DNA of 64,000 bases from Polytrichum commune. Its lineage: Eukaryota > Streptophyta > Polytrichopsida > Polytrichales > Polytrichaceae. Made by a program: the position numbers and the translations under genes. Shown in pieces: positions 991 to 51,649 of this stretch (position 1 is the stretch's first letter; every line of letters begins with the position of its first letter). The notes below the pieces were generated by a model. The model searched no databases. It was not told the DNA's origin and saw only the letters and a list, made by a program, of their open reading frames with translations. The DNA is taken from the NCBI GenBank assembly GCA_950295325.1, contig OX485805.1:27949501-28013500 (forward strand), in the 5' to 3' direction.

Positions 991-1556
991 TTACGAACGA
1001 GCATTCGTAATTGACAAAGCAAATCATATACACTAATCATTGAACTATGGCTATGGATACCCGTGAGAAGTTGTAATGATGTCTTCGTTGATTTCATTTA
1101 CGAACGATCGTTCGTAAAGAATGTGGTTGCTAAGGTGTATTTGACACAAGTTCACGAACGTGCGTTCGTATTGTTTCTAAACAAGTCCACGAGTTGTCCA
1201 GGGTTATCTAATTTCCACGAGGGTTGTTCGAATTTCCATGAGCATCTTCTAAATAGGTGAATTAATACTTTAGTTCTTATTTACGAACGTGCGTTCGTAA
1301 ATAATGCTACTTGGAAATGCAGACAATTACCATGAAGGGTTTGGTATATTGTTATAGTTTGTGATTACGAATGTTCGTTCGTATTTTTGTATGTGTAATT
1401 GGATTTGAGGATTTTCTGATGTACAGGGTATAGACGAATATACGAACGTGCGTTCGTAAAAATGGAGGGTGAGGTGCGTATTTACGAACGCACGTTCGTA
1501 TATGTTTGTGGGGTAAGGCATGTATTCACGCCACATTTACGAACGAACGTTCGTAA
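991..1556. repeat. Palindrome cluster P1 (8 sites)
   Basis: Eight copies of the 20-bp palindrome TTACGAACGnnCGTTCGTAA or close variants lie at 991-1010, 1098-1117, 1152-1171, 1281-1300, 1365-1384, 1440-1459, 1482-1501 and 1537-1556. The central two bases vary. Several sites extend symmetrically: the 1537 site is flanked by CCACAT and its complement ATGTGG, and the 1281 site by TTAT and ATAA. Degenerate sites (GCATTCGT at 1001, ACGAATG at 1367) look like CpG decay. The cluster begins just upstream of the minus-strand gene at 959. Confidence 0.9.
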
Positions 1557-2010
1557 ATGTGGTCATCTGGGATTAGGAAATGGTATATTTATTTATGTAC
1601 ATATATATCCGTACATATACGTATACGTATATGTACATATACATATAAATGTTGGTATGAATGTTGCAATCTGGCATTGTTCATGATCCTGCAACTCGTG
1701 ATCAGATTGATGAAACACAAGTGAAAAATGGAATCAGAACAAAATTGCGAGTCAGTGATTGATAGTTCAGAATGAAGAGGAAAGTGTTATTTCATACAAA
1801 ACATGACATACCTCATAATGCAGAAAACAAATCACAAGGAATTCATCAAACAACAATTTCAGATTGTGAAAGAGTAATTTGTAAAGGAAACCTGTACTCA
1901 CATTGAATTGTTGCACACAAATCCTCCTGCCTTCACTTTGTCACACTCTCAAGCCTTCACAACTTATATGCAAATCCTACACAAACCCTGATGTACACAA
2001 CTCACAAGCT

Positions 2011-2276
2011 TCACAAAACTCAAGCTTTCTGAAGCTCTCAAGCTCTCAAGCTCTCAACCTTTCTGAAACTCTCAACCTCTCAACCTCAAACTCAAGCTCT
2101 CAAGCTTTCTAAAACTCAAGCTCTCAAGCTTTCTAAAACTCAAGCTCTCAAGCTTTCTAAAACTCAAGCTTTCTAAAACTCAAGCTCTCAAGCTTTCTAA
2201 AACTCTAAACCTCTCAAGCTTTCTATAACTCTCAACCTCTCAACCTTTCCTACTCTCAAGCTTTCCTATTCTCAAG
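2011..2276. repeat. CTCAAGCTTTCTAAAA-type minisatellite
   Basis: Imperfect tandem copies of CTCAAGCTCTCAAGCTTTCTAAAA-like units of about 10-26 bp. The same motif recurs at the same relative place in copy B (32330-32660), so it is an inherited part of the duplicated block. No coding meaning seen. Confidence 0.8.
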
Positions 2277-2460
2277 GTTCTGACAACACAACAAAACAAC
2301 ATTCACAATGAGGCTCTAAAATTGGCAAGGGCTTCGCCGCACCTAAGAGCTCCTCTCCTCCTCTGCTCCAAATGACAAATGAGGAGGAGAGAGAGGGGCG
2401 CGGGGAGGTAGCCGGCGCCGCTAGGGTTTCCAAGCGGCAGCCACGTGGCTAGTGGCCACT

Positions 2461-2720
2461 GGCGAGGGCTGGGATGGGGGAGGGGGATGGGGAGGGGGAG
2501 GGGGATGGGGAGGGGGAGGGGGATGGGGATGTGGATGGGGATGGGGAATGGGAATGGGGAGGGAATGGGGAGGGGATGAGGATGGGAGGGGATGGGGAGG
2601 GGATGGGAAGGGGAGGGGATGGGGAGGGAATGGGAAGGGGAGGGGATGGGGAGGGGATGGGATGAGGATGGGATGGGAGAAGGGGAGGGGGAGGGGATGG
2701 GGATGAGGGGATACCATGGG
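2461..2720. repeat. G-rich GGGGAT/GGGGAGG array
   Basis: Simple G-rich array (GGGGATGGGGAGG type) on the plus strand, with long runs of G tetrads that could form quadruplexes. It is preceded at 2350-2395 by an inverted repeat built from CTCCTCCTCT and GAGGAGGAGAG around CAAATGACAAATG. The Pro/Ser-rich open frames here are artefacts of the repeat. Copy B has a shorter version at about 32850-32935. Confidence 0.85.
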
Positions 2721-3118
2721 GACATGGAGGGATGAGGGTTCAGGAAAAATGAAATAGGAGATGGGAGGAGCTTAGTTTAGGGACATAAATTTGACTTTCC
2801 GTATCCCCTTAGTACCTCGACATATGGATTCCTTGTAAACATATTTTAGAAAAGTATGTTCAGATAATTTGTATTTAACAATTCATGTCATTTAGTAGGT
2901 TTTCGATGAAGAATCCACCCCCAAGATGCAAATGTCGTTTTCATGAACGAGACATCTTTAAAGTTCTTCAATGGTTCCTCAAATAAATATTACATATATA
3001 AATGACTCAATTTAAATTGTGGAGAGGGGCTATCTGATTCTCCACAAGAGGTGGATGAAAATTCAATTTTCAATACGATGTCATTAATTTCATGAGGTGT
3101 TAGCTTGAACCACCCTTA

Positions 3119-3690: not shown

Positions 3691-4990
3691 TTTATCTTAC
3701 CAACCTTTCTTATATATGGCCATGTTGTGGTCTATGCGCATCATGTCAAAATGGTCTACCAATGTTGGTTCGATTGGAAATTGCTTTATTTGGGTCATAG
3801 CAACTATAATAATCTAGACTCATGCCAATAATTGTCATTTTGATATAAAACATTGGTTTAGGGGGTGAAGAATGAATTTTGAAATGCTAGCCCTTTCACC
3901 TTAATAGTTTTGAGTGCAATTTGATCACACAATACACACTTAGTCTTATTATAACATGAATGGTATAAGACTTCAACTTAAATCAACAGTTAAGCTATGG
4001 TCATGCACATACTTCTTGTTGCAAATAATACAAATATATAATTGTAAATGCATACTATTGTATGCACCATTCCAAATTCGTTATCCATTTCCACACCATG
4101 GTGGACCTAAAGTGAATTTCCAATAGGACGTCAAGTCATTTAATTAGGTGTCAACTTGAACTAACGATCGAATACTAGTGCATTAAACTTTAATTTTCAC
4201 CAATGATGAATTGCAACAATGATTCATATTAATATGGGCTGATGTTTGGTGAGCCTCCAGTTCCAAATGTCCTCAATCTACCTAGCACAAGCCATTATGG
4301 ATTAAGCGACTTTTTATTGGTATTCATGCACTTGGTGACCATATTATAAGCATTTTTTTATGTGAATCATATGATACCTACAATTTTAGGGAATTCCACA
4401 ATATGTTCTTAGCCACTCTTACCTCATTGTGTGTGTGAATATATATATCACTTAGACCTTCATCAATTCACTTGGACTTCACACCTTAGTCGCAAATAAT
4501 TTAATACTCAATGTTAACCCATCAACCTATATATATATAATATAATAACCCATATATAAAATAGTAAAATATACATATATATACATATAAATATAGACAT
4601 ATAGACATATAGACATATTTTCGTGCGACCTTGGTAACAACTAAGGTGTGCGACGGATTTATAGATTTTCAATATGTTGCGTGCACGCAAGACATGTTCC
4701 ATACATAATGCTATTTATATATTGCGCATGGATGGAATGGCATATTGTTAGGTCAAAGTAGGCGGCGGGAATCCGCTTTTTAAATAGCATCCAAGGGATT
4801 TTGAACCATCGGGGGGAAGGTACTTAAAGCTCTTCCCCCCCACAGAAGAGCTCTTTTCTGCGGCACATCCAAGTGTGCGCTCCACAGACCTGACTGGAAC
4901 GCGCTCAAACCATTTTCTTGTGCGCCAACCCTACACCACCCAGGTCCACTACAGACTGCACATACCCGTATATACCGCCGCAAATACCGG

Positions 4991-6073
4991 ACGTTTACGA
5001 ACGCACGTTCGTAAACGTGAGTTGGTAGCACATGTACAATAGGTACATCGATATGATATGAGTTGTTTACGAACGTGCGTTCGTAAGTTGATCACAACCG
5101 TACTCGACATTGAGTTCCTTATAGACAGAACTAGGCACGAAAATTGTGTCGATGATATACGAACGTACGTTCGTATATCTACCTTCAAGACCCAAACGCG
5201 CATGAGTTCCCGTGTAACCGTTTTCTCCAACGGAACATCTGGTGATGGGATATTTACGAACGTGCGTTCGTAAATATCACCTGGGATTATTTTTCAAGAA
5301 TTCAAAAAACATTCCTTAATTTATACACTTCAGTGCATTGGCCACGTTAACAATATGCAAGTTAAATACGAACGAGCGTTCGTATTTCTCACTACCGTTT
5401 GTGTCCGCGGAGAATTATGTTAGTTGAATTTTACGAACGCACGTTCGTAAATACCACTTGTCCACCGTCCACGCATCCACCAACAGGCCTGTTGACGCAA
5501 GCATGTGTAGAGGACTACACCGTGTTTATGATAGATACGAACGCTCGTTCGTATCTATGCAATCATGATTTAGTGATAGATGTCGACTGTCATTTTCCAC
5601 TGGTTATTGGATAACATGTTTCCCTGTAACGTGGCTATAGATATCTCTATTCGGACGTGTCCAACCATTTTTTCCAAACACTGTCGCGGCTGTGACATAC
5701 AGATGATCGGTCGTTTGCATCCGCCCCTAAGTTTCGGCTGGAACTTACGAACGATCGTTCGTAAACACTCGCCCATCAAATATGATGCTTACTGCATGTG
5801 GATAAAGTGGCAAGTATATTTTAGGTGCTCTTATAATATGTCCCATTTAGATTTTATTGTATATTGGGTTGATATTTTCGTCCGTGCGTTCGTGAATATA
5901 TGTGCTTGTGTTGTCCCTTGGTGGTGGACAACCCTTCCAATGTTTTATTGGCGACTCGACCCAAAGCCCTTCACGGGTAATATATATCGGAATGGGGTTC
6001 CGTTGTGCAGGGACATCTGAGTCCCGTGTAGGATTTGCATGTCATCGAGCTGTTGTCGAACGCACGTTCGTCT
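4991..6073. repeat. Palindrome cluster P2 (10 sites)
   Basis: Sites at 4995-5014, 5067-5086, 5157-5176, 5254-5273, 5366-5385, 5431-5450, 5535-5554, 5745-5764, and degenerate ones near 5876-5896 and 6054-6073. Spacing is mostly 65-112 bp. The 5154-5179 site is a perfect 26-bp palindrome. The 5249-5278 site has 14-bp arms with GATAT/ATATC flanks, 5531-5558 has ATAG/CTAT flanks, and 4991-5018 has ACGT on both sides. The cluster ends about 140 bp before the ATG of the transposase-like gene at 6216. Confidence 0.9.
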
Positions 6074-6215
6074 TCATATGTGAGGTCCCGCAACGGTGTG
6101 GCGAGAGTTGTTTGTGATTTTTGAGCCATATATGTAGGCATATCTCGTATCCACTTTTGTATGCATTGCGGTGGTTGTTGTGTTGGTCATTTTATTGGTG
6201 GTTTGTTTAGGTTGG

Positions 6216-9200
6216 ATGGCGATGCACGTTGGATATAGTTCATTGGAGTTGTCCACAAAAGCTTCCTCTTCCGATGATGACTGTAAACTATCTTCGCCAT
6301 CGGCGGGTAGTCATGGCATGGCAAATGCCATGGGTGGGTTTGTGGATGCATCCTCCCACGAATCATTTGAAGCGCACGAACAATCTATACGTTCCGGGGA
6401 TGACAATGATGACATTCCGTTATGTGCCGGTTTCGGTAGGGAGCAATGGGTGGGCCTTGATGTTGTTCTTTTCAACGATGTTGGTGTCCCCGTGGCAGAT
6501 GGCATATGTAGAAACTCTGATCCCCGTGATTGTGTTGATGCCAACCCCCTTGGTCCCGATGATGTGGGTGTGTGCATCTTGAATTCTTTGCTTCCGCTTG
6601 ACGTCCCGGTGACATGGAGATTTTCCTTGCGTCGATGGCCTCTTTGTCGGGTTCTCCATGACGGAGTAAGCTTGTTGGACCATGAGCGCCGCCATAATCA
6701 AACGCAATTAGCTTTGTTGACCAAAATACGTCCTCGCAAAGGCCTACGCAGATATGATTCTAACCGTGTGCCTCGTGGAGATAAGGAACGTCGACGGGAT
6801 CGCATATTGGGAGACGAAACTATCCGTCTTGTGTCCGCCAAAGACTGTTGCGAGAGGAAATGTTGCCAATTTTTCCCGCGGGAGAAAATTAAGTCCCTAC
6901 GTCAAGAGATGTGGCTTGCGGATTTCCGTATGAGATCGGCAAAGAAACTCGAGGTCCACAGAAATGTCCACATTGACACCCATGGGCGTAAGGTGGTCAC
7001 ACTTGAGAATGTGGAAGTGTGTTGTACTGCGTGGTATACCATCCACGCCGTGTCAAAGTCTGACTTTTATAGGTTTCAAAAATATTCATTGTTGGGTCGC
7101 CGCTCTCGATTTCATGGCAATTCGGGCACAAAGAAACCTAGGGAGGCTACACTCCAAGCCTCCGCGACACTCTCCACCATCATAGTCCCATTGGCCGATG
7201 CAATGCCCCACAAGACGAGGACATTGTCGTCAGGGGAGAAAGTTGTACAAATGGTATTGCCCACGGGTACAAAATGGAAGAACATATTAATGGACATCAA
7301 TGAAGTGGGTCGCATAGCGGGATGTGGGCCCATTTCTTTGTCCAAGTTTAGTGTGATTAAAAACCAACAGTTTGCCGAATACATTTTGAAGAGACCTGGG
7401 GACAAGTTCGCTAGGTGTACAACGTGTAAAAAATACAAAGGTCTTCGAGACGCCCACCCCATAGGCACCGAATCCCACACTAGACACCAAGCAAAATATA
7501 TTGAACATGTCAACAACCAAGAGGCTCACCATCAAGATTACTACAAGAACCGTGCTCTATCCATAATGAGGCCTACAGAGGTTCTAACAATCATCCATGA
7601 TAAAATGGACCACGCCAAGACCGCATGCCCTTGTTATGCACGCAAAATTAAGGCCACGGATGGTCTCTTCAAGTTGCCCGTATCTGTCACAGGTTTATAT
7701 TGAATCACAAATATGTATTCAAATTCTCTCAAATTTTACTGGGTGTGTTTGCCAAATGTCCAATTTCATACCTCCGTTTGGAGTTGTCGTTGTTATTGTT
7801 GTTGTTCAAGCATCGTTTGTTTTTTTTTGCAGGGATGATTGCCCACGGCCATGGAGACGTAAAGTATGCCCATTATGGGTTGGATTTTTACCCTGGCGAT
7901 GCTAACCACACAGTGGGTTCATTTGCAAAACTCTTGCGCGATCTGGAGAAGCCGCGGTTACATTCATCACGTGCACTTTTTGATGGTTGTGGAACGACAC
8001 CCCTTTACGAAGCAGTGCTTGCGGGGAAGGAGGTTTGTATGTCGTCATTGCCAGAACCACCGGGAGAACCTATTTGTGCAAAACCATTGCCTCCAACTCT
8101 TCACGTTCAACTTGATAATTGCGCGAAAGACAACAAATGTCGATACGTATTTTGTTTTTGGTCATTGCTCGTGGCGAAAGGAATCTTCAAGGAGGTGTTT
8201 GTGTCATTTTTGATGGTGGGACATACACACGACGACATTGATGCATCATTCGGACGGTGGAGCATGAAGTTGCATGAAGAAGATTTTCCAACCATACCTC
8301 TTCTTATGAAATCGTATATGGATTTGGACCATATGCCAGTAATTCCGCACATGATTGAGGAAGTACCAGATTTCAAGGCCTTCATCAAGTCATACATGTT
8401 GAAGGGAGGGGACCGTTTGGTGGGGCATACCAAAGCACAACAATTCCGATTCTATATAAGGGATGATGGTCTCCCAGCCATGCAATTCAAGCTTTTGTGC
8501 ACATCTCATAATTGGGGACCGGATGATGGTATACTCGTATGGCGTCAAGACAATGATGGGAAATGTTTGCTCCCGGATGGGGATCCAAAGCCTTGCAAAC
8601 CCGACCCCATGAGGAATGGGCCGGAAATCATCAAAGTCATATCCGGATTCATTGAATATTGGAAAGAGTTGTGTGAGGAGGACATCACTAGACGTGTTAG
8701 AGATACTCATGAACCTTTGATTGCGTATTGGGATCGCATTCGCTCGGCCCTAATGACATTTGGTGGTGACACCCGTACAACTTTAACACAAGGATTTTGG
8801 CCACAAAGTCGTTTGACGGTTGTCGAGTCCGACACCATGGTTTTTAGCAATGGAGACGTTCGTGAAGAGTTCGCAATGGACGAGCATTACGTTGGCCCTG
8901 CCCGCAATCGACCGGCACCGTCGTTTCGTGTAGGTGTTGATTGCCATGAAGGTTATTTGGTCCTTGTACGAGCAGGGGATGAGGAACATCCCAAGCCAAT
9001 TTGGTTGGTGAAAGCATTGTCTTCACCCAATTTTGTTTGAACTAGCCCCAACTTTCGTCAGATTGAGGTGGAATATTGTCGTCCAAGTACTAAAGACCAG
9101 AACGTGCTACGCACTTATTTAGGTTGGGACACCAAAAAGAATTTTAAGTGGACAATGGACTTAGCGTACACACCGGTTTGGATAAACACGGATACTATAC

Positions 9201-25388: not shown

Positions 25389-25446
<58 letters not shown>

Positions 25447-35128: not shown

Positions 35129-35179
35129 AGATGAGGAGCTTCAGGTTTAGACAAATGATTCGGACCTGTACATGGCAAG

Positions 35180-35704
35180 GATTTACGAACGTGCGTTCGT
35201 AAATCCCACATGAGAGCATGCTCTGGATTGAGCTACTCATATGGATAGTCACATGCACGTAATCCATGTCAGTTATTTACGAACGTGCGTTCGTAAATAT
35301 GCCTTCGAGGACCATACAGACATATTTGATCCTTATCTATTGGTACCTGATGGTCGGTAATTTACGAACGTGTGTTCGTAAATCCCACATGAAAGCATGT
35401 TTTGGATTGAGCTACTCATGGATAGTCACATGCACATAATCCATGGCAATTATTTACGAACGTGCGTTCGTAAATATGCCTTCGAGGATCATACATACAT
35501 ATTTGACCCGTATTTATTGGTACCTGATGATCGGTAATTTACGAACGTGCGTTCGTAAATCCCACATGAGAGCATGTTTTGGATTGAGCTACTCATGGAT
35601 AGTCACATGCACATCATCCATGGCATTTATTTACGAACGTGCGTTCGTAAATATGCCTTCGAGGTTCATACATACATATTTGACCCGTATCTATTGGTAC
35701 CTGA
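35180..35704 (+). repeat. Tandem 178-bp array with two palindromes per unit (left part)
   Basis: Three units of 177-179 bp. Palindromes lie at 35183, 35277, 35362, 35454, 35539 and 35631, alternating 94/85/92/85/92 bp apart. Each unit has CCCACATGAGAGCATGTT after the first palindrome and ATGCCTTCGAGG after the second. The last unit is cut at GTACCTGA by the hAT element, and the array resumes at 50988. Confidence 0.95.
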
Positions 35705-35984
35705 CAGGGTTGTCTATCGCGACGTCATGACGGTGTCGTGCCGTCATGTCGTGTCGTGTCGTGACGGACCCCTCCGTCACGACACAATAGGGTCCATATA
35801 GGGTCAACATAGGGGGAATGGACTAGGGTGGGTAAAATACTTACCTTCTTGCCAAGGTGGCGTCCTATGTGGCAGAAAACGCCGACGTGGATGTGCATAT
35901 TTCCCTTGCCAAGTAAACCATTTTGCCATTGTGTTTATCATTCTGTTAAAATCAAAGTAGAAAAATATGACTAAGGAGGGTGTG

Positions 35985-36190
35985 GGGCGGACGGGGGCGG
36001 ACGGGTGGGGCGGACGGGGGAGGGGGGTGGTGCGGACGGCGGAGGGGGGTGGAGTGGACGGACGGGGGGGTGGTGTGGACGGGGGAGGGGGTTGGAGCGG
36101 ACGGACGGGGAGGGGGGTGGAGCGGACGGACGGGGGGGGAACGCTGGAGCGGACGGGGAAACGCGGAGGGGAGCGGGGGGGGGAGGAGAA
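35985..36190 (+). repeat. G-rich GGACGGGGG array near the left hAT end
   Basis: Repeats of GGACGG and runs of G. Similar arrays occur at 42745-43195 and 50565-50755, so this is a shared feature of the hAT element. Open frames inside are low-complexity artefacts. Confidence 0.85.
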
Positions 36191-36196
36191 CAACGT

Positions 36197-36945
36197 GCAA
36201 TTGCGGCCATATATTTTTTGGCAGTAGAAATAATATTGCATATTCATGTAGAGGATTTCATTACCTATCCATGGATACCAAGAACTCATTTTTTAGACTT
36301 TATATGAATTTTTGAGAGCCAAAAAACCGAGACTATGTCCAAACTTCCAAAAAAAAGTGAAAAAGTGCAGATTCAAGGGGAACAGCGTGGAATTTCGGCC
36401 ATATATTTTCTGGCAGTAGAAATAATATTGCATATTCATGTAGAGGACTTCATTACCTATTCATGGATACCAATAACTCATTTTTTGAACTTCATATGAA
36501 TTTTTGAGAGCCAAAAAACCGAGACTATGCCCAAACTTCCAAAAAAAAGTGAAAAAAGTGCAGATTCAAGGGGAACAGCGTACAATTGCGGCCATATATT
36601 TTCTAGCAGTAGAAATAATATTGCATATTCACGTAGAGGACTTCATTACCTATCCATGGATACCAATAACTCATTTTTTGGACTTCATATGAATTTTTGA
36701 GAGCCAAAAAACCGAGACTATGTCCAAACTTCTTAAAAAAAAAATTAAAAAGTGCAGATTCAAGGGGAACAGTGTAGAATTGCGACTATATACTTTCTGG
36801 CAGTAGAAATATTATTGCATATTCATGTAGAGGACTTCATTACCTATCCATGGACACCAAAAAAACATTTTTTGAACTTCATATGAATTTTTGAGAGCCA
36901 AAAAACCAAGACTATGTCCAAACTTCCAAAAAAAAGTGATTGTGA
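36197..36945 (+). repeat. 192-193 bp tandem repeat, four copies
   Basis: Each unit has GGCCATATATTTT, GCAGTAGAAATAATATTGCA, a TACCTATCCATGGATACC segment, GAGAGCCAAAAAACCGAGAC and a run of A. Anchors at 36205, 36397 and 36590 give periods of 192 and 193. A single further copy lies at 43200-43370, also right after a G-rich array. Confidence 0.9.
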
Positions 36946-37664
36946 ATTATATAAATATAAATATAAGCAATTGTGAAGAGTCCTTGTGAGAAAATACCAT
37001 TCATAAAATTGCACACTCAATCAAAACTTTATTCAATATCAAGTTTACAAATCACGAGTGAATATGAATCAATGTAACTGGATGTGTAGTTTTTATCATC
37101 CATATTATGGTTGTATTTCATCCGTTAATGTTTATAGAGTCAGATTTACAAAGAAGGGAGTACCATTTTGTTAACTGTTAACACGTTTAACATTTATAGT
37201 GTGCAATATGTGGGGAGTAGAAGAAAGTTAACATTTAGAGATGTTTATGATCACGTGTACAACCGATATAACTATTGCAATATTGTGCTCAACTTTAGTT
37301 AACTAGATATAACTATAGTTGACTACATTTTGTGGCATACCAAAATTAGAATAAATATAGGTAACTGCATTTTGGCAAGACATATCACAAACAACTATAG
37401 TTAACTTGAACTTAGCACATGGATGTGATAACAACGATGTGAAAGAACGATGTGGCCTCACGAGAGGCGAGAACCTTGGTTAGCTTCCCATAGACTTCTT
37501 CTCGATTATGGAGCAAAAGCCTCATGGAGTATGAACATTGCACTAAGATCCATAAACCTCATACAATATACAAGTTTTGTATGAAAAAATGATGGCTTTA
37601 TTTACATCTCCAATGGTTATAAAATTGGTATGATTCAAAATTGTTACAAAAAAACAAAAAAAAT
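36946..37664. other. AT-rich, no gene seen
   Basis: Several variants of ATAACTATAGTTAACT occur around 37270-37410, a weak dyad-rich stretch. Nothing coding. Confidence 0.4.
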
Positions 37665-38221
37665 CTATTTTACAGTGTCACGGAAGCACATTGTCGGGTT
37701 AACCATGTTGTATGGAGGGGACTTCAAAATGTTCACTACGTGTGTGATGGTTGACCTTTCCGCTGGATTGGTCTTCGTCAATGAATCCAATGCTAACTCA
37801 AACCGCATATTCAAGCCATTTGGATCACTGTTTAGCTGAAACAAGGGGTAAGTCGCATCCCTGGCATAAATCTTCTTTGCCAAAGCACCCACTAAGAAGG
37901 ACTCCGAAAGAAACGTGTGCCTATGTTTCCGAGCCATCCTCACCGGAGAGGTGGATGTTCCACGCTGCCCTCGTACATGGAATAATTCTAGACCAGCACA
38001 GTTGTATTTTTCTTTGTGCTTGTTCACCTCATCCACTGAATCTCTTCCATAGTTGGAGGGTGCGTCTTCACCTCCCCAGGATGCAATGCCCCAATCACAC
38101 ACACCAATGTAAACCGTGTTATCACGGTTTTGTGGGAAATGCAGCATGACATTGTTGGGATTAAGGTCATTGTGCAACACGTCATGCTTGTGCACTACAT
38201 CCACAATGCACATTAGAGCCC

Positions 38222-39920
38222 TGTGAGGCCAAATCTACCACCCTTAAGCGTCCTAGTCCGGGTGATGACTTTGAGAATCACATTTATCTATTACAACATT
38301 GAACCATGTGCAAGGTAATTTTCATGTTCAATTGGACGTGTATTGTCTCGCTCATTGTGCTTTATTAATGTTGGCCTCTTGGCTTGTGCTAGAGTTGGCT
38401 TTCTCAAGAGTCCAACCCGCGGCTTTAGCCGCGCATGCCCTTACGGACATTCCCCTCATTCTTTTGAGTTTCACCCCCTCTATCTTGCCATTGCAAGAGT
38501 CCTTCACATTCTCCATTAATAATGCAAGTGAGTTATTTTGACCAAGAGGTGCAAGTGTTGAGAAACACTTTTCTCAATGGTTAAACACACTCATACAAAC
38601 CCAAATGTGACACCAACTAGCCTAAATGAACCTAACTCCTTAACCACCACTAAAATGGCCTAATGTGAGTTAGCTTTTAATGTGCTAACCCCTAAACTCC
38701 CTAATAGTGATTTGTCACTAAGCCGCTTAGCTGCAGTCTGTAGCCAAGTCGAACCAGCTATCTGGTAGCAACAACTCACTGAAATCTGTAGCCCAGTCGA
38801 ACCAACAATCTGTAGCCAGTCTAACCGGCTGAGCCGGTAGCAACGACTTACTGAAATCTGTAGCCAGTCGAACCAGCTAACTGGTAGCAGCAACTTACTG
38901 AAATCTGTAGCCCAGTCGAACCAACAATCTGGTAGCAGCAACTTACTGAAATCTGTAACCAAGTCGAACCAGCAATCTGGTAGCAGCAACTTACTGAAGT
39001 CTGTAGCCCAGTCGAACCAACAATCTATAGCCAGTCTAACCGGCTGAGCCGGTAGCAGCGACTTACTGAAATCTGTAGCCAGTCGAACCAGCTAACTGGT
39101 AGCAGCAACTTAGCGAAATCTGTAGCCAGTCGAACCAGCTAACTGGTAGCAGCAACTTACTGAAATCTGTAGCCAGTCGAACCAGCGAACTGGTAGCAGC
39201 AACTTAGCTTGCCTCTAAACACAACCACCTTATCTCCTCATACAAATATTCTCTAATCTTTTCTCCTTCTTTTTCTTTCTTTTTGTTCCTTTTCTCCTTA
39301 ACTAATGAACTAGTCTACCACACTAAATTCACTAACAACTACCTAATCCTCCTAGGCAATCTCAAGCTCTAAGAGCTCACTCACTTGGGAGGCGTTGAGA
39401 GAGAGAGCTTAACTAATTATCTTCACTAAAACTAATGTCACACACACGTGGCTCAAGCTCCTAAGAGCTTGCTCCCTTGAGAGCGCTTGATGGAGAGAGT
39501 CGCAAATGAGAGAAAGAACACCTTAAGTAGCAAAGAGGGAGAGAGGGAGAGAGAGGTGAGGATAGGGTGGGAGGATTAGCACCTCCAATCACAATCCCTT
39601 AACCTTCACCTTCAAAGTAGGGACTAATCCCCTTCCACCAAGCTTCTTTCTTCCTAAACTACCAAGGTGGATCCAAAAGTGGGCATTTAACCCGCGGAGC
39701 TCACCTTGCCTCACCTTACCCTTTACTCACATAATCAAGGCATCCTCTTATTGAAATCAAACCTTGAAATAACTACACAACACATTCTAATGCCTAAACT
39801 TAAATCCAAACCACACTTCACTCTTTTTATGTTTTGTGAATAATCATAACACATCCAAGTCAAACTAAAATTAGTTTCGAAGAGTTAATCACCACATGTG
39901 GGCACCATTTTGGGCTCACA
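38222..39920. mobile_element. Solo LTR-like insertion L2 (1.7 kb) with AGCCC target duplication
   Basis: Begins TGTGAGGCCAAATC and ends TTTTGGGCTCACA. AGCCC flanks it on both sides (38217-38221, 39921-39925). Removing it and one AGCCC rejoins the kinase frame as AYLAWALMCIVDVVHKHD. TG...CA ends and a 5-bp duplication are LTR features. No coding sequence, primer site or second LTR was seen, so a solo LTR is the best reading. Confidence 0.8.
38725..39210 (+). repeat. About 46-bp minisatellite within L2
   Basis: Roughly ten variants of a unit containing AATCTGTAGCCAGTCGAACC, AGC(T/A)A(A/T)CTGGTAGCAG and AACTTACTGA. Some units are longer and include a GGCTGAGCCGG dyad. The Trp/Leu-rich minus frame here is a by-product. 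Confidence 0.85.
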
Positions 39921-40325
39921 AGCCCATGCCAAATAAGCTCGATGCCTTCGATATACAACCAACCGTTTCCGTGCTTCAAAGTCTGCCCCAGGCATTTGAA
40001 GGATTGTGCGCTCGTGGGTTTCCGGAACGATGAAGTCATAGACCTTCATGTTCTTCAAGGAGCCTCCATTCCACCACATCGAATAGGATTCGTATGTTTT
40101 CATATTGAGGTATTGTAGCTTGATTACCCTAGGATGATCTACTGGACACGCCAATGCTTCAACTGAACGTTCCTTTCGGTTCTCCAGACTATTCGTGGCC
40201 TTCATGGTCTTCCCAGCCCACTCTATCCAGCTAGGGATGAATGCTGCTCCATGAATTGTGACTCTCCGCACCACTCCGAAGGTCCCTTGGAAGATTTCCT
40301 TATCCAAGGCTTTGATCTCCGCATT

Positions 40326-41515
40326 TGTCGCGCACCTCTCCATGAGGAGTGGCCGAAACACCATGGGCACAAGGGGGACCCCGGAGTGACACCCGGGACT
40401 TGTGGCGCCGTTGGTGAGAGGGCCCAAGTGATCCTAGTGTGGGTGAGGGCCCCGGGCGTTGGGAACGCCTCCCACCCACAAAGACTAAGAGGCATGAGGG
40501 TGAGGCCATGAGCTATGTGTAGCTCATGGCGTGGTGATTCTAGAATGCTCAAGATCACCTCAATCGGAGGTGTGAGCTAGGAGTTATGGCCATTTGAGTG
40601 GGGTGCTGTCCCGGGACAGCGCCCTGGTACAGCAGTGCCTGGGAGTGATCCTAGTGTGGGTGAGGGCCCCGGGCGTTGGGAACGCCTCCCACCCACAAAG
40701 ACTAAGAGGCATGAGGGTGAGGCCATGAGCTATGCGTAGCTCATGGCGTGGTGATTCTAGAATGCTCAAGATCACCTCAATCGGAGGTGTGAGCTAGGAG
40801 TTATGGCCATTTGAGTGGGGTGCTGTCCCGGGACAGCGCCCTGGTACAGCAGTGCCTGGGAGTGATTCCCGGGACTGCCAAGGTTCAAACAGGCATAACT
40901 TCCTCACCACTTGCCCGAATGGGGCAAGCGAGGAGTCCAACGGCATCTACGTGAAGCGTAGATGAGGATGGAGTGGTTGGTTGTTATGATCAGACATCAT
41001 ACAAGGAAGTTATGATGGTCTGAAGCTGCTGGGGGGGTTCTAGGCCCAGCAGCTAAGGGAAAATGTCCACTTGGCCCCAACTCTTGGTAGAGAGACAAGA
41101 GGTTGGTTGGCGGTGGGGTAGGGGCTCCGTGTAGAGTCCTAGAGGCTTATATGGGTGAGGTGGTGTGGCCTCACCCACCCGAGGCCGAACGGCACGGCCT
41201 CCATGGGCATTGGCCCATTGTGAGGCCATAGTTGCCTAGTATGGTTCGGGTTGTTGTAGTGTTGCTCCGGCAACGCGATGATCAACATAGGATTGGAGTT
41301 CCATGGATGGAAGTCCACATTGGGGAAATGGGTTACCGATTAAGGGGTGAGTCCCGAAAGCAAAGTAGGAGGGTTGGTTCCCTCCTATGAACTATTGGTC
41401 CGGGGTAAGAGGAGCTATCCATTAGCATGGCGGAATGCGAAGGGTTAGCGCTCGTAACCTTTGCTAGAAACGAAAATTGGCAAGATTATTAAGGGACCTA
41501 GCAAGGGTTGCGACA
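40326..41515 (+). mobile_element. Solo LTR of family L1 with an internal 217-bp duplication
   Basis: Starts TGTCGCGCACCTCTCC and ends AGGGTTGCGACA. Flanks are GCATT (40321-40325) and ACATT (41516-41520), a 5-bp target duplication with one change. It is 1190 bp long where the family length is 973-975. The excess is a tandem duplication of 217 bp (40430 and 40647) whose copies appear almost identical, joined at GTGAT microhomology. It lies in the kinase gene between its glycine loop and the upstream region. Confidence 0.9.
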
Positions 41516-42744
41516 ACATTCCTAGGCAACCATATGACACCCTACTGGCCCTGAGTGGCAATGTTGTCTGCCATCTGCCTGTCAATAAGAATGGGAAGGT
41601 TGCGGGCGGATGTTCCTTTTGCTGCTATTACGCCTCTTTTCCAATTCTCTAGCTTCATGTATAGCTCGGACTTCCTGGCACTACTACTTCCCTCGCCAGG
41701 ATGCAGAGCATCATATTGCATTGTTGGATTGTAGATTGCTTCCACGGCTTGTTGTTCAATCCAGGTGTCCCAATCGCTCATGCCCCTAGCTTCTTCAAAC
41801 TCCGCTCCAGCCGTGGCTTCCGTGAGAATAAGCATCAAATCGTTCCTCACCAACTATAAACCCTTTGTACCATCATTGAGGTATTTTTTTTCCAAATAAA
41901 CCATGCTGTTATTTCTAAACCACTCCAACAGCACGACCCTACAATGGTTTCGAGCCTCATCGATCCGCGGGTCGCGTTTGCCTCTATTTTTCCTTTTCCT
42001 CAATTGCGAACCTGATACCGCGGACCCTTCCTCCGTCCCTTCCGAAATTGCTGGGCGTTTCAGTCCCTGTCTTTCACCATGCTCCGAACCCTGAGGTACA
42101 TCACGTGCAGGGTTCTCCGGTCTTGATGTCCCCCGTGTCGGAGATCGTGGTGGCACGGACTCCCCACGAGTGGCTACATTTATATTTGTGGAACTGCCTG
42201 AGCTTGGTCCCCTTCCTGTTCTCCCTCTATGTCCACTGTTTCCCCGACTCCCACGTGTTCCACGGCTTCCACGTGTTTGGTTGCCTACTGAATGACCAAG
42301 AACAAAGAACTCTTCGTCAAACCGAAAGGATCTGGACGTGGGGGACGTGCTGCAATACTTCCACTTCCGGCCTCGCTTCCCGTACCCTCTCCAGTATGCG
42401 CAGGTGCAATGCTTTGGAGCCAAGCACGGTGCAACCTCGTATCCTCGTCTTCGTAAGGAGCAATGTCCTCCCCCTCCATCGTGAAAAAAACCGCGTGAGT
42501 GAGTGAATGTAGAAATGAGCGCGTGAATCTGGAAAAAAAATTGCGAGGGTTCCCCCACAATTTGCCCTGCCCTCCCAAACCCCCTGAGACCCGCGCGGTG
42601 CCGCTGTCCTTGGGACGGCAACAAGGTCTCGGGTCCCTTTGTGGTGGGAGGAGAGGAAAGTGAGGGGAACTAAAGCCCCACGGCTTTATATAGGCAAAGG
42701 GGAGCACAATCATTATGGGATCCCGGTCGGATTTGACATGGGGC

Positions 42745-43195
42745 ACGAAAAGGACGTATGGGGAACGTGGGAACGCGGGGGCGGACGGAGGGAACGAGGG
42801 GGCGGACGTAGGGGAACTCGGGAGGGAACGCGGGCGGACGGAAGGGAACGGAGCGCGGACGGGCGGGAACGGGCGGGAACATGGGGCGGACGGGAGGGAA
42901 CGTGGGGCGGGAACGTGGGGCGGACGGAGGGGAACGTGGAGCGGACGGGAGGGGAACGCGGGGCGGACGGGAAGGGAACGGGCGGGAACATGGGGGGGAC
43001 GGGAGGGAACGTGGGGCGGACGGAGGGGAACGCGGTAGGGAACTCGGGTGGACGGAAGGGAACGGGGAGCGGACGAGAGGGAATGGGAGGGAACGTGAAC
43101 GCACGGAGGGGGAACGAGGGGCGGACGGAGGGGAACATGGGGCGGACGGGAGGGAACGTGAGGCGGACGGTAGGGAACGTGAGGGAAGGGGGGCA
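42745..43195 (+). repeat. GGGAACG/GGGCGGACGG array
   Basis: About 450 bp of interspersed GGGAACG, GGGCGGACGG and GAGGGAACG units just upstream of the kinase-like gene start, followed by one 192-bp unit (43200-43370). Long open frames on both strands are repeat artefacts. Confidence 0.85.
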
Positions 43196-43370
43196 GGGGA
43201 ACAGCGTGGAATTGTGGCCATATATTTTCTGGCAGTAGAAATATTATTGCATATTCATGTAGAGGACTTCATTACCTATCCATGGATACTAAGAACTCAT
43301 TTTTTGGACTTCATATGAATTCTTTAGAGCCAAAAAACGGACACTATGTCTAAACTTTTAAAAAAAAGTG

Positions 43371-44270
43371 TAAATGACCGAGTTCACACTATGGCCGTCC
43401 AAGTCGAGAGGCCGTGTGATTGAGTGGCCCAACTTTGTTGAGAGTCTAAAGAAATGAACTGAAAATAGCCAATAAAATATAGTAAGGGTAGCCTTGGTTG
43501 GGCATAGTGTGAAGCCTCCAAAGGCCAAGCGCAAAGTCCAAACCTTTGGCCATGAACTCCCACGGCCTCTCGGCTTGGATGGCCAAAGTGTGAAGCCTCC
43601 AAAGGCCAAGCCCAAAGTCCAAACTCAAAGGAGCATGCCACTTTATTCCTTGCTCAAAATAACCCCTCCAATATAACGGCCAAGATCTTGTCAATGATTG
43701 ATTATTTTAATGAAAAAAAAGTTCGGCCTCTCGACGGAAGTTTGGGTTGAGCATTTTGCTATACCCAAACTTTGCTCGAGAGGCCGAACTCTTGGCGCCA
43801 TAACTTCCTAAAAGTGTTGCCACCTAGGCTCTTTTGGAGGCGACGTCCTTTGGACTTCGGCCTCTAGTGTGAAGGCCGAGAGGACGGACTTTGGGCATTT
43901 CACACGGGTAGGTCACTTAGTGCATTTTAAAAACGACGTGCGGCATAATATAGAGAGGATTAAAATCATTTGAAATAAAAATTATAAAGGAATTCCAAAT
44001 AATGAAGGGGCCATTAAATTGAGACAATCCCATTATAAGTAAGTTAGATGGACATAAAACGTGGGCCATTATTTTTTTTGTAAAATTAATATAGGGGTTA
44101 AAGATAAGGATCCTAGAAGGTATGTTTAGTATGATATGTAAATGGGTTTAGGACTCACGGGGATGGATGATAATTGGGATTTCCGTCTGTCCAAAAATGG
44201 ATGAAAAGGGAACGGGCCGTCGTTGGGGTCGTCTTCCCCACACCCGTTTGCATATGGCTAGGGTTTCAAT
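43371..44270. other. Non-coding, duplicated segment and a long hairpin
   Basis: GTGTGAAGCCTCCAAAGGCC(AAG) occurs at about 43507-43529 and 43588-43610. 43721-43746 and 43764-43789 form a hairpin with 26-bp arms (GTTCGGCCTCTCGA end, three or so mismatches) and a 17-nt loop. The words GAGAGGCCG and CGGCCTCT recur through 43390-43890. No gene recognised. Confidence 0.6.
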
Positions 44271-46370
44271 TTGCTTTGCGTTTTTGTCCATTTTCATCAT
44301 GAAGTGCCCACACACTCACCGGATAACCATGATAATTGTCTTCAAGCAGGATCTTCATGTGGGTCAAGTCTGTTATGCAGAGGATCAGACTGTGGGGTGC
44401 ATTTTGTCCAACGAAGCACGATAAGGCTATCGTCAACTGTAAGATCCGCTGCCAAACGAAAAAGGGGACGTTCAAGTAATGTTAATAAAGCTGGAAATGC
44501 TACTAACATATTGAACGGAGTAGATGAGGGGTCATGGTGGGTGGGCAGGGTGCAAGCTATGCGGCGTCGCAATGGGAAACAATATGGAGTATTGAGGCAG
44601 GCGGTTGACCTCCTTGCCCGAACAAAGGAATCAGGGAGGAGAAATCCTAACAATCCTCATATTGAAGTAATGTTGCAATATTATAGAAAACATCCTGGCC
44701 ATGATAAGTTTAAATATGATCACACATATAGCCAATGGATTGATATAGATTGTGTTATATCTACTGTGACCATGAGCTACAATTCTACAAACGAAGTAGA
44801 CACTCTAGACATGAATGATTCAAAGCAGCTGTCCAAGTATATAGGATTTAGTACCAAGCTTGGATCATCTTCAACTGCTTCACACAATGTAAGTATTCAA
44901 CCTTATAGCATGTTAAAGTTTAAAGATTGTCATTTCTTAAGAAATTTTTTATGATTGATGAAATGTTATATAAAATGGAGGTTTAGGTATTTTGAATTCA
45001 AGGTTTTTGTATGTTCACTGCAATGCATTAAACCCTAAATGCCGAACATTGGATTAAGGAATTATTGCATTTTAGTGATGAATCATTATATTTTAGTGGT
45101 GAATTATAACATTTGAGTGAATTTATGAATTATTATGTTCATAAGCACTCACCTTCTAGATCATGCGCTTGATGTCTTTGGCAACTGGGTGTTGAGTCGC
45201 TGCCACGCCCAGCGGGAATGGGATCGCGTAGATCCCACAGATGAGGACCGCGCTAGTTTTATGAAGCTTCTTCCCCGTTTGGCCGTCATCCACAGCTCTG
45301 GCAAAGAATTTGTAGGGAGCATAGTGGAATTCGCAGCTTTCCGACTAAACCACTGCTATTCTTCCCGTTTTTTTGATGAGTTTGGGTCAGCATTTTGTAA
45401 ACCGCATGTTGTGTTTGTGAACACACATACATTTTTCCTCTGTTTCCACCCTTACCTTATTTGTGGTGTACTTGGGGTTATTTTGTACACGCTATAACAT
45501 TGTGACTCCACCCTAAATCATAAATTCTAAACCCGCTTTACTATGCTCTGTGTTTTTGGTCACTTGCATTGCAATGACCGCTATGGTATTTGTGTTGCCA
45601 TCTCCTATGTATTTTCATCATAACAATGTTTGCAATGATATTACTTTCAAGTTGAATCATGTGGGGCCTAATTCCATCCACAATGTCTAATAGGGAATAT
45701 GATCAAGAAACGCCAATGTCCTCATTGCAGATCACCCTTCCACCCTCGTTTGTACCTCCAATTTGGCCTTCGGGATTACATGCCTAATGACTGGGTGTTA
45801 AAGCCATGGGATTTTTCCTTCGATCTTCAAGAATTTTATGGGAAGAATGTTAAGTGGAGTTGGTTATACAATTGTGCCAAGGTTGAGCTATGGCACGAGA
45901 ACAGAAATGGCGACTGGACACGGAATGCACGTCAAATTTTGTATGTTGCAGACGAGTTGTATCCCAACAAGCCCCCCGATCATGGCTTGAAAAGATTTTT
46001 GTAGCAAACTCTTGAATGGCATTGGGATACAACCAGCAGACAATTAAAAAGAGGCACTCATCCTCCTTGGTACAATGCAGCAGATCTCGAATCAGTATCG
46101 GAGCATGATTTGGAAGAAGATGCAGATGACATACCTACGGAACGGGATCCGAAATTTGAATTGCAGTTAGAGGTGGGGTACCACAAAAACAGGCTGCAGT
46201 TGGCTGCAATTGATGCACTCTTCTATAGAGTTGCGGATGATGCGGTATTGAGATGGCTAAATGGTGGGCCTAGACCACGTAATGCCGTTCCATTGTCTCC
46301 TGGTAGTCGTCCATACCTCACCCGTGGAACAACGCGAAGCATGGAAGCGGGGGAATCATCACGAGCATGA
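44271..46370 (+). pseudogene. hAT cargo gene of unknown function, several exons, one in-frame stop
   Basis: An open stretch to a GTAAGT donor at 44889 encodes a basic segment (RSAAKRKRGRSSN) then EGSWWVGRVQAMRRRNGKQY. A second piece (about 45150-45420) reads HALDVFGNWVLSRCHAQREW and FMKLLPRLAVIHSSG. The last exon (from about 45699) has QCPHCRSPFHPR, a possible metal site, and WDFSFDLQEFYGKNVKWSWL. A TAG at 46002-46004 interrupts it, but the same frame continues TLEWHWDTTSRQLKRG to GESSRA at 46370. Exact splice joins, especially into the 45150 piece, are not settled. It converges on the hAT transposase. I cannot name a family; a DNA- or chromatin-binding accessory role is only a guess. Confidence 0.45.
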
Positions 46371-47115
46371 TGAGGATCTACTTCAGCTGCAATACACCTC
46401 AATTCAGATTCGGATTAGGCATTTTGTACCATGTTTAGAAAATTGTATAGGAACGGAGGAAAACTTTGGACACAATGAACATATTTCATGTTCAAAGAAT
46501 ATGTAATATAAAGAGGATTTACCGACAAGTTGTCATTTCTAAGATCGTGTAAAAGATAGCATATGGATGTCACATGTTTTAATGTTATTCGAAACTTTTA
46601 AAAACTTACTTGAATATTAGTAATTCATATGATAGTCTAACCAAAAGTACTATTGACTACATAGTCAATATTGAATACCACATAAAGATATAATTATATA
46701 AAACGGATAGAAAGGTCCTCAAAAAGAGGATGTCACCAACGAAGTATGTACAATCGAGCAATAGGGGATTGTTATATTTATAAAAGCATTTTCTTTAAGA
46801 AGCTCAATAAATAAACATAAAACTCCATTCACAGTAAGAATAATACAAAATAGAATTAATAAAGGCATAACATATTGTTGGAGATTAATTGCAATGCCAA
46901 GTTGACAACCATATTGTATTTAATTTTTTTTTTAAAACATGCAATAAATAATTTTATTACTATAATAAAATGATACAACTTCGAAGGTAACGTTCGCTTT
47001 GTGGTCTAAATGTCTTACCGAAGGCCCTAAAGTTGTAACTTGTATCAATTTTGACGTAAGTAATAAATTATGGGAGTACGTGGGAGCACCGAAATACCAC
47101 ATTTGTACAAAACCA
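46371..47115. other. AT-rich spacer between convergent genes
   Basis: Separates the ends of the plus-strand cargo gene and the minus-strand transposase. Contains an AATAAATAATTTTATTACTA-type stretch (about 46943-46962) that could serve 3' end formation. No gene seen. Confidence 0.4.
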
Positions 47116-50100
47116 TTACGTTCGAATCCGTACTGTGGGATCATTTGCTTCGACACATCTTGGGTCCTCTTCAGACTCGTCTGTGCTGCAATCATCATCC
47201 GTTTGGGGAGTCGCGCTCCGAAGATGCAACTCTCGGTCACGTTGTGAGAAAATTATCTTCTTGGTCGGCCGGGAGCCCTCTGCATCATGTATGCCATTTT
47301 CATCTAGATGTGGTCTACCCTCATTTTCATTGTAGTCTTCAGCAGTAAACGGAAGCGATCTTCCCTGATACCTTTTCCTAGTACGTTTGACACCTCTCGT
47401 AGTTCTCTGACGCCCTCTACCCGTACCACGACTTGAGTGCACTTCATCTCTACTTCCATCTATAAAAACATCCCCCGTTGTATTTCCGCCTCCAACTCCA
47501 AGGCCACATGTTCCATTGGATTGACTGTGTGGAAGTGAAACTGATGCGGATGGAATTGCAATTGGTATGTTGTCAACAACATGTCGACGAACAGATTGAC
47601 GACGTGGCGCCTCTGTAGTAACATTTCTTGAAACATTGTGTATAGCAACCAAAGTAGCACCCACCGCAGTTGCACGTGAAACACCCAATCTAGAAGTATT
47701 GGCAATACTTCGAGTGAGAGGACGACGTTGACCTTGTGCATGCACTTCCACCGTAGAGGTGGATGCAATTATTTGAAGAGCACGGAATCGAGTTGTAGGC
47801 ATTTCAGGAACATTGGGTGTTTGATCTTCTATACGATGGTTGGATATGAGGGAGGCGTCCATGAATTCAGAATGTACTCGGGCTGGAAGTGGATCCTGTT
47901 GAACGTGCGTTGGCTCATTTGCGGGTAGTACATTGTCACCTTCACCAAAAGAAAGAGAATCGCTCCGAGGTTGCAAGGAATCTACTTCAATTCCTACATT
48001 CTCACTTGCCCCCATAGCAATATTATGGTCAGGGCGAAACCCTTGTCCAATGTGGAGAGTTTCAAAAGGCGGTCCTCCAATAGACCCCTCATAATCGTCA
48101 TGCATTCCGTCGTTATGTTGGGGGACATCCGGTTCATCAAAAATCAAACACCCCAAGGTTTCCATCACTACCATTGCCATCCTCATCTTCTGAATCATGA
48201 TTATCGGAATCAAGGTCATCCAAATCAAAGTTGATGTCATCAACATTATTGTCATCATCATTTCCGGCCCTATCATTTGGATACACGTCATCTTCGTTGT
48301 CATCTTCTTCGTCAAGGTCATCGTCAGAATGGACCTCATTCAATTCGTACCATTGCGCATGTCTTGGGCCCCTCCGATGTCGAATGAGCCTACTATTGGT
48401 ATATATGTAGACGAGGTCCTCAGCACGACTATGCTTCAAGCGATTGCGACTCTTGTTGTGAACATATGAGTACATGCTCCAATTGCGTTCACATGCGGAT
48501 GCGGAACATATTTGTGCAAGGATACGTCTTGCTATTGTTTGGAGGGCTTTAGCTCCACCTCCCATTGCATCCCACCATTCATGGAGAGGTGCGGCATGCA
48601 CGCTCGGGTCAGTAGAATCAGCAAAAGGCCCTCGATTTTCAAGGAAATCTTGGTACTGGTGGAGGATTTGGACATAAGTGTCCTCATCTTGAGCAAGCCT
48701 GCGAAGAACTCGATTTAGGATTGTCTTCGAATTCTCATCCTCATGGAGTGGGGCCCAACCCCGTAGAAGCGGATTTAACATCGCTCCAGCCCAATGTAGA
48801 TCATTCAACATCAACCTCCATCTATTTTGAAACGTTAGCATAGCATTTGCAGCAAGCTCAGGGCTTAAGCGAAATGGAAGTTTACTGAATCCACGAATAT
48901 GGGTTTGTAAATCATGCATGACCCTCCAAGCCATTCCCATTGCAGGCGCCTTGCCATCAAATACACGAAGAGCTTTAACAACCGGGATCACCATATACAA
49001 GAAATTTTCGCACGTGTTCCAGAATCCATCAGAACGTATAAAGCTTCGCACAACAGAGCCCTTCATGTAAGAGGTGCGAGATCTCCTCTTCATATCACGC
49101 ATTAGAGTAGGCCAATCCTCATCAACCACCATTCTTTCCAAAGCATTGCGTACTTGGAGAAGACGTTCTATCATGATGAAGTTCGTTGCAAAACGGGTCT
49201 CTACAGGTAGGCGGAGTGAGAGATTTGGTGACAACCTCCGGAATATAGCTTGAGAAGCATGATGGTTTTTAACAAATACACAAATATGGCGCGCTTTTTT
49301 TACCAACTTTTTCACCCATTCCTCCTTCCCCCAATCTTCTAAGAGGAGATCTAGGCAATGTGCAGCACATCCTTGAAAATATAGATCGGAATTTGCTCGA
49401 ATCAAGTCGCGAGCAGCGGAGGCCATAACTGGGGCATTGTCGGTACAAACTTGGACCACATTATGTCGACCAACCTTTTCCACAAATGGTTGAATTTGAG
49501 CAACAACGTAGACATGATCCTTGTGATTTCCCGTGGTGTCAATGGTACCCAAGAAAACGTCTCCCTTTGTGCCACATTGAAGAACGTTTAGGAGAGGTCG
49601 GTTTTGCACGTTGTCCCATCCATCACAACATATTGTAACGCCATATTTGTCAACGGAATTCCCCAGCTTCTCCTTCACTTGCCTATCTAGGTCAACCTTT
49701 TTATTAGTTAACAACTTCGTACGGATGGCATTGTACAATGGTGGTGTGTAGGTTGGCATTCGATGACGGGCAGTTTCACGCATAGCATGAACAAATGCAG
49801 GATGTCTCACAATGTTGAAAGGAATGTTAGCTTCATAAAAAGCCGTTGCCCATGCTCTATCAAGGAGTTGTTTTGTTGACACATTGAACCCCTCCATTAT
49901 GTTGAGTTGACATAGTTCACGAGGAGGTGTGCCATATATCACAACATCAGAATGTTGAGTGGATTGGGACATAAGCAAAGGCTCTGTTTCACTAATTACG
50001 GAGTCCGCTATAATAGGCTCCAGAGGTACAATATCTGGCACCGGAGAGTCCTCATTTACAATGCCTACATGTAAGGGCACAATGCCTCTGCAATGTTCAA

Positions 50101-50332
50101 ACAAGACCCTAATATGCGGGGGTACCATCCTACATGTGGAAACATCACAAGCACCCCCTACAGGAGGTCTATAACTAAGGTGGGCCAACATTCTATTTCC
50201 TCGGTAAGATATGACGAACGGGCAAAACCTACATTTAACCTACTTTTGTGATTTACCGGGAACCATCCCCTTATCCTCGTACCAATGATCCCATGCATCA
50301 TTTCGGCGTGGCATGACTTCAACAAAACCTGC
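47116..50332 (-). CDS. hAT transposase (BED finger, DUF659/RNase H core, C-terminal dimerisation region), frame-disrupted
   Basis: The main frame, 50191-48137, is 684 codons. CCDGWDNVQNRPLLNV and VQVCTDNAPVMAS are DUF659/hAT RNase H motifs. WWDAMGGGAKALQTIARRIL with CSASACERNWSMYSYVHNKS is the hAT dimerisation region. The same frame upstream (from acceptor TTTGCAG at about 50333) encodes AWDHWYEDKGMVPGKSQK, then a TAG near 50245, then VKCRFCPF and MLAHLSYR, forming a BED finger (CxxC, H, C) cut by that stop. At the 3' end one extra T in a TTTTT run (about 48140) ends the frame at GVFDF. In the shifted frame 340 more residues follow (DEPDVPQHNDG to TVRIRT), with an Arg-rich segment GRGRQRTTRGVKRTRKR. 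It mobilises the hAT element when intact; two breaks make this copy doubtful. Confidence 0.88.
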
Positions 50333-50564
50333 AAATACAAACAAGTTAGAGCAAGTAACTTTGATCGCATACTAGGTCCTGTTCAAGAGTGCCACAAGGG
50401 CAACCCTAATTCACAGTCACTAGATTGGACAAAGTATCCTCTGCATTCGGGTCTCACGCATTCAATCCTCACTCCTCAAAGGAGAATCAAAAGACTTGAG
50501 ACACACTATGTCAGTGGAGGCAAAAATGGCACCTTGAACCCTCAATTTATAGTATTCGAATCGG
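50333..50564. other. Intron or leader of the transposase gene
   Basis: Upstream of the acceptor at about 50333 on the minus strand. No further exon recognised before the G-rich array. Confidence 0.35.
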
Positions 50565-50755
50565 ACGGGGGAGCGGACGGAAGGGGGGGGGGGAGCGGAC
50601 GGACGGGGGGGGGAGCGGACGGGGGGGGGGGGGGGGGAGCGGACGAGGCGGGGACCGGACGAGGCGGGGACGGGGCGGGGAACGGGAGCGGACGGGAGTT
50701 GGGAACAGGAGCGGACGGGGGTGGGGAACGGGAGCGGACGGGGGGGCGGACGGGC
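50565..50755 (+). repeat. G-rich GGACGG array near the right hAT end
   Basis: Runs of G with GAGCGGACGGG units, the counterpart of 35985-36190 near the other end. Together they bracket the element about 230-280 bp inside its termini. Confidence 0.85.
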
Positions 50756-50987
50756 TCTAGTAAAATTTTCCCTACTTTACCTTTACTTTGCTGACATGTC
50801 ATCACACGTGGACATTGTAAATCCTACGTGTCAGAAATGGGTTAATGTAATTACACAAAAAATTCGGTAAAATTCAAGTCCGTCAGGATAAAGACAGCAT
50901 CCGGCATAATGTCGTGACGGATACGTGTCGTGATGGCACGACATTATGCCGGGATTACCCTCCGTCACGACACAATACACAACCCTG

Positions 50988-51649
50988 GTACCTAATGGTC
51001 GGTAATTTACGAACGTGCGTTCGTAAATCCCACATGAGAGCATGTTCTGGATTGAGCTACTCATATGGTTAGTCACATGCACATAATCCATGAGAGTCAT
51101 TTACGAACGTGCGTTCGTAAATATGCCTTCGAGGATCATACATACTTATTTGACCCGTATCTATTGGTACCTGATGGTCGGGAATTTACGAACGTGCGTT
51201 CGTAAATACATGTCATTATTGTCTACGCATTCAGCAACACATCTTCATTCATACACATCAGTATGGCAGTTGTATACGAACACAAAATAGCAAGAAAAAT
51301 ATGCTCATCGCCCGTCCGTGAAGGTTGTGAAAACGGGGTCGCACCCATTTACGAACGTCCGTTCGTGAATGGGTAGGTACGCAAAAGTCAACATAATCAA
51401 ATTCACAATATGAAGGGGCTCAGTGTTCAAAATATTGTTGGAGTTGATTCAGGCATCATCTGCAGATTTACTACTTTTGTGCATATGGACAAGTGTTCTC
51501 TTGTGATAGTATATTGCGCACGTTCCTAAGTCAACATGGTACTTTGACCTACAAAACTGATATTCCTGAGGGTGCTCTCAGATGAGGGATCTCGAAGGCC
51601 GCCGGATGCACATGGAGAAGTTACTGAGGTCACGAACGCGCGTTCGTAA
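50988..51649 (+). repeat. Palindrome array, right part
   Basis: Continues the 178-bp array in register after the hAT element. Palindromes lie at 51007-51026, 51101-51120 and 51186-51205, then diverged ones at 51349-51368 (ACCCAT/ATGGGT flanks) and 51630-51649. The flank between 51206 and 51704 has no gene, and the L1 LTR begins at 51705. Confidence 0.9.

Follow-up and report, generated by a model that had tools for sequence, protein, structure and literature searches.

In the 64-kb stretch of Polytrichum commune DNA analyzed here (the window), a 16-bp dyad, ACGAACGnnCGTTCGT, recurs in arrays whose core is nearly constant from site to site, while the bases abutting it differ between sites and are complementary within a site beyond what is obtained when flanks are exchanged among sites, a signal to which a minority of the sites contributes. 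These features point toward a sequence-specific dyad-site array that occupies the 5' control sequences of transposon-like genes and whose arms would have been lengthened site by site by inverted-repeat template switching, a reading that we prefer and hold with roughly even confidence.

The window contains 28 exact copies of ACGAACGnnCGTTCGT and four with a single mismatch (starts 993, 1367, 6056 and 35364), three of the four changes being CpG transitions. The resulting 32 sites come close to the original prediction of about 33, and a relative with three mismatches, at 5878 in the right-hand array of region A, is additional to them. The dyad usually extends to 24 bp, ATTTACGAACGnnCGTTCGTAAAT. 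All 32 dyads are confined to two related, apparently noncoding regions, A (993-6071; 17 dyads) and B (31759-51647; 15 dyads), and none of the 22 forward or 24 reverse CGTTCGTAA half-sites stands alone away from a dyad. Region A comprises a left array of eight dyads at 993..1554 (993, 1100, 1154, 1283, 1367, 1442, 1484 and 1539) and a right array of nine at 4997..6071 (4997, 5069, 5159, 5256, 5368, 5433, 5537, 5747 and 6056). The left array of B, at 31759..31878, has three dyads (31759, 31813 and 31863) homologous to those at 1442, 1484 and 1539 in A, and its right array consists of seven dyads at 35111..35648, of which six belong to tandem repeats about 177 bp long, and five at 51009..51647 (51009, 51103, 51188, 51351 and 51632). 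These two groups are split by a hAT-type insertion on the minus strand (35705..50987; 15,283 bp), which terminates in CAGGGTTGT/ACAACCCTG, is bounded by an 8-bp target duplication containing one mismatch (GTACCTGA/GTACCTAA) and includes a frame at 48140-50239 in which Pfam recognizes a hAT dimerisation domain and DUF659.

Regions A and B share a common body (about 1438-5283 and 31755-35391, respectively), with roughly 70-75% identity where it is alignable. Directly before the A-right array, a conserved block (4745..4990, plus strand) agrees with B in 221 of 246 aligned columns and may represent a promoter; the spacers between dyads, with 117 of 228 columns identical and 24 gapped, fall far below that level. 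Adjoining the A-left array is a 26-bp perfect AT-rich palindrome (1611..1636) whose sequence is unlike the dyad, and the matching position in B holds a 34-bp perfect AT-rich palindrome of different sequence (31912..31945). The A body additionally shows a near-perfect palindrome, ACACTAAATATCATATTTAGTGT (3433-3455), within a stretch of about 450 bp that is absent from B and is possibly a small inserted element, as well as a run of the telomere-type repeat AAACCCT (3636-3684).

Open frames lie on both sides of A. To the left, a minus-strand frame of 319 aa (3..959) runs off the window edge and has no Pfam family above its cut-off; its ATG at 959 directly follows a CAG resembling a 3' splice site and is 33 bp from the first dyad. 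To the right, a stop-to-stop plus-strand frame of 521 aa (6138..7700; no Pfam family) is likely the 5' part of the right-hand gene, with a splice-acceptor-like TTTGTTTAG near 6208, and a plus-strand DUF7869 frame (7652..9037; PF25273, E 3.3e-40) lies downstream of the A-right array. Since the flanking frames start just outside the arrays, each of two divergent genes would have an A array in its presumed 5' control region, leader or first intron. The neighborhood of B-left contains minus-strand frames without Pfam families, homology to A ending at 31755, and on its right side B gives way to an LTR retrotransposon beginning at 51705.

The Pfam scan covered 20 distinct open frames of the window. 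For the DUF7869 frame, single-sequence structure prediction gave a mean pLDDT of 36.2, the PDB sequence search returned only three matches (E 0.35-0.58), which were taken as chance, and a literature search for DUF7869 found no paper. Minus-strand frames at 26722-28402 encode SDGCANQFKS...GHGKGPHDGAGA, which by eye resembles LDNCAKDNK...VGHTHDDIDA of the DUF7869 frame; Pfam assigns them no family, and BLASTP did not match them to that frame. Elsewhere in the window we observed a DUF4216 domain (54870-55496, minus strand; 33.6 bits, above cut-off), a weak match to a TET/JBP oxygenase domain (20011-20496, minus strand; 16.1 bits against a cut-off of 34.9) and a fragment of eukaryotic 18S rRNA within unrelated sequence (25388-25728; 232 bits over 25446-25728, the match quality dropping after about 25690). 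An LTR family of the form TGTCG...CGACA is represented by three copies: 21364-22338, apparently a solo LTR bracketed by a TAATG duplication; 40326-41515, which is flanked by GCATT/ACATT and contains a 217-bp tandem duplication; and 51705-52677, followed by TTTGGTATCAGAGC, which we take to be like a primer-binding site.

The co-variation of flanks within each site, as originally predicted, was examined by shuffling right flanks among sites (20,000 permutations), with the summed uninterrupted complementary run as the statistic. The 32 sites give a summed run of 119, compared with 77.3±5.3 in the permuted sets, and the 26 nonredundant sites, obtained by leaving out six near-identical tandem copies (35364, 35456, 35541, 35633, 51009 and 51103), give 93 compared with 55.2±5.2; neither value was reached in any of the 20,000 permutations. 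The co-variation is therefore borne out within the window, and the eight flank pairs named in the prediction are all present, at core starts 1539, 4997, 5159, 5256, 5537, 31759, 35185 and 51351, the last having T-G as its core-adjacent pair, after which pairing restarts for 7 bp. All P values given here are post hoc, as the pattern was first picked in the same DNA, and they refer to sites that are partly dependent, some A and B sites being homologous.

Among the 26 nonredundant sites, flank positions 5-8 are paired in 42 of 104 cases (28.4±4.2 expected by permutation, P 0.0013), while positions 9-14 and 11-20 pair at chance. Nine of these sites have identical core-adjacent ATTT/AAAT, and their run further out is 16 compared with 5.3±2.5 (P 0.0002); the remaining 17 reach 41 compared with 25.4±4.3 (P 0.001). 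The excess is thus present in both groups, which rules out an artefact of two flank classes. Region A alone (17 sites) gives a run of 58 compared with 30.6±4.6, reached in none of the 20,000 permutations, and the nine nonredundant sites of B give a weak signal (35 compared with 29.3±2.6, P 0.059; positions 1-8, P 0.008). When the eight named sites are removed, the other 18 retain a run of 48 compared with 36.0±3.9 (P 0.005), with P 0.075 for positions 1-8 and chance pairing at positions 5-8 (P 0.46), and the 12 such sites in A have a run with P 0.054. Together, these results show that within-site flank complementarity is real, but carried by a minority of the sites.

Complementary runs abut the core and range from 0 to 8 bp per site, with only 0-2 bp at 11 of the 26 sites, 51351 included, and over the 4 bp past the first mismatch pairing is at chance (25 of 93 positions, compared with 21.7±4.0; P 0.24). 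The core follows a different rule: across 32 sites and seven pairs, 220 of 224 pair cells are consensus, four are broken on one side and none shows a compensatory change, and in seven homologous A/B pairs the core bases agree at 97 of 98 positions, compared with 72 of 112 flank bases (eight positions per side). The lack of compensatory change together with the agreement between A and B indicates that sequence rather than pairing is conserved in the core; selection on pairing only is disfavored, since it would allow the core to drift in paired form, and the core does not drift. In this regard, the CpG observed/expected ratio amounts to 0.67 over the window and to 0.42 in the central part of A, a depletion that suggests methylation-type decay is at work, and the CpG-rich cores persist nonetheless. 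Perfect inverted repeats with a spacer of up to 8 are also in excess outside the arrays (60,681 bp), with 107 of arm at least 7 compared with 36.9±5.9 under a local second-order Markov control, and 21 of arm at least 9 compared with 2.7±1.5, counts that are inflated by repeated transposable-element copies.

These findings allow us to propose a model in which the 16-bp dyad would be a sequence-specific binding site, arrayed on both sides of an apparently noncoding region of about 3-4 kb that may belong to a transposon-like multigene element, possibly mobile as a unit. The core would be recognized by a protein acting as a dimer, of element or host origin, through which expression or mobility would be controlled. 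As each site is a short inverted repeat, replication would occasionally jump from one arm to the other as template and so make the adjoining few bases of one flank complementary to those of the other; in separate events of this kind, some sites could become symmetric over more of their own local sequence. Hairpin copying of the dyad, as suggested in the original prediction, agrees with the shape of the signal, namely uninterrupted core-abutting runs at some sites followed by chance. In line with this notion, template switching is described as homogenizing inverted-repeat arms and as creating or repairing perfect stems (PMC8794818, PMC8604942). Quasi-palindrome correction produces uninterrupted reverse-complement arms, as seen at our sites, and multibase matched changes in short inverted repeats, and the runs of up to 8 bp seen here end as abruptly as such copying would predict; it is known as a mutation process at scattered loci, whereas in these arrays a single conserved dyad family would be its repeated target. 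At the homologous pair 1539/31863, left-arm positions 6-8 carry three differences and the right side one; with two copies only, flank changes are not polarizable, so that each individual template-switch event stays putative.

The statement that no plant element like this has been described proved too strong, given the palindromic arrays of Sirevirus LTR retrotransposons, the nearest known parallel (PMC2829016). In these elements, palindromic motifs are arrayed that share a fixed CGG-CCG core, to which each element adds symmetric sequence of its own, and they are located in the LTRs and near or before the ENV gene, and the core signature is found in all listed Sireviruses except Tnd-1 (PMC2829016, Table 3); the motifs are also cited as small-RNA hotspots in a later maize paper (PMC10760457). 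The likeness lies in plant mobile elements, putative in the present case, carrying at least eight short, CpG-rich, fixed-core palindromes per element, clustered in noncoding control regions, and the 17 copies in A and 15 in B exceed that number. Sirevirus arms, however, are described as differing between elements, whereas here the symmetric arm bases vary from site to site within a single array; moreover, the core here is CGAACGnnCGTTCG rather than CGG-CCG, and it lies beside the DUF7869 frame and an unassigned frame, not in Ty1/copia LTRs or before ENV. The LTR at 51705-52677 begins 57 bp past the last dyad, neither it nor the two other copies of its family hold any dyad, and the 20 frames scanned with Pfam include no reverse transcriptase or integrase domain. 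As core and location both differ, Sirevirus membership was dropped, and the resemblance is one of layout. Among the matches listed, literature searches with the motif strings found no description of such an element in the text available, and searches on transposon palindromes and template switching listed nothing matching.

Another explanation, which we consider unlikely, is that selection acts on the folded structure as such, be it a hairpin or cruciform or an RNA stem of the 5' leader, the core being read in folded form, for instance as a small-RNA source or by a hairpin-binding protein. Four tested core dyads form isolated RNA stems of -13.4 to -20.7 kcal/mol, the 816-base A-right stretch has a folding z of -9.6 (relative to 20 shuffles only), and the AT-rich perfect palindromes at matching places in A and B keep symmetry with different sequence; that dyads in a half-decayed state are nearly absent would likewise be compatible with the entire dyad being selected as a structure. 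The folding scores, however, follow from the palindromes and do not demonstrate use, and both the uncompensated core and the many sites with minimal runs argue against it. In homologous A/B flanks, 12 positions changed on both sides: four went from paired to paired, four from paired to unpaired and two from unpaired to paired, and two were unpaired throughout, so that compensatory change after divergence is no better than even. Nor was a G-U excess fitting the presumed transcripts found on either array side, the left-array mismatches (plus strand; 12 G-T, 4 A-C) being opposite to what a minus-strand transcript would leave and those of the right array being balanced (7 and 6). A pure RNA-stem reading thus received no support from these mismatches or from the core pair cells, and the idea that base-pairing itself is what is kept is not supported. 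The strong heterogeneity between sites and the run-then-chance shape are better explained by discrete copying events than by a stem required at each site.

CACTA and other DNA transposons carry many copies of short motifs at both sides of the element body, and the arrays may likewise be subterminal repeats bound by a transposase at the two ends of a CACTA-like DNA transposon of about 4-5 kb, autonomous or not, to which we give a similarly low probability. It would account for the arrays flanking a common 3-4-kb body in both copies. Against it, reading the sequence by eye revealed neither terminal inverted repeats nor a target-site duplication around A or B, regions that differ from CACTA-type elements in having no recognized ends. 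Open frames also start just beyond the A arrays, an arrangement more in keeping with control regions.

More doubtful is an extension of our preferred reading, according to which the array would be a self-perfecting operator of a large plant-lineage mobile element with divergent genes. Its arms would be continually rebuilt by hairpin-primed copying, private to each site yet symmetric, and element-directed or replication-linked synthesis would keep this symmetry for a binding protein or a folded form.

Herpesvirus replication origins combine dyads and AT-rich palindromes between divergent genes. The replication origin of a viral-like element, with an origin-binding protein reading the dyads, would match region A in this layout only, and is very improbable: the arrays here are far longer, the 20 frames scanned with Pfam contain no viral replication domain, the DUF7869 query has no relative in viral contigs, and the dyad occurs in viral contigs only as single, unrelated sites in four of them. 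That the complementarity arises by chance or from picking the best flanks, as the results without the eight named sites might suggest, is just as remote and is largely refuted, since the permutations over all sites count misses too.

Covariation is commonly taken to prove selected pairing, and here, in arrays of many copies, covarying arms surround a core that does not covary. With copies from across the genome, the extent to which template switching by itself mimics structural selection could be tested cleanly in nature, as could the means by which transposon control regions retain arrays of long palindromes in the face of instability and the risk of silencing.
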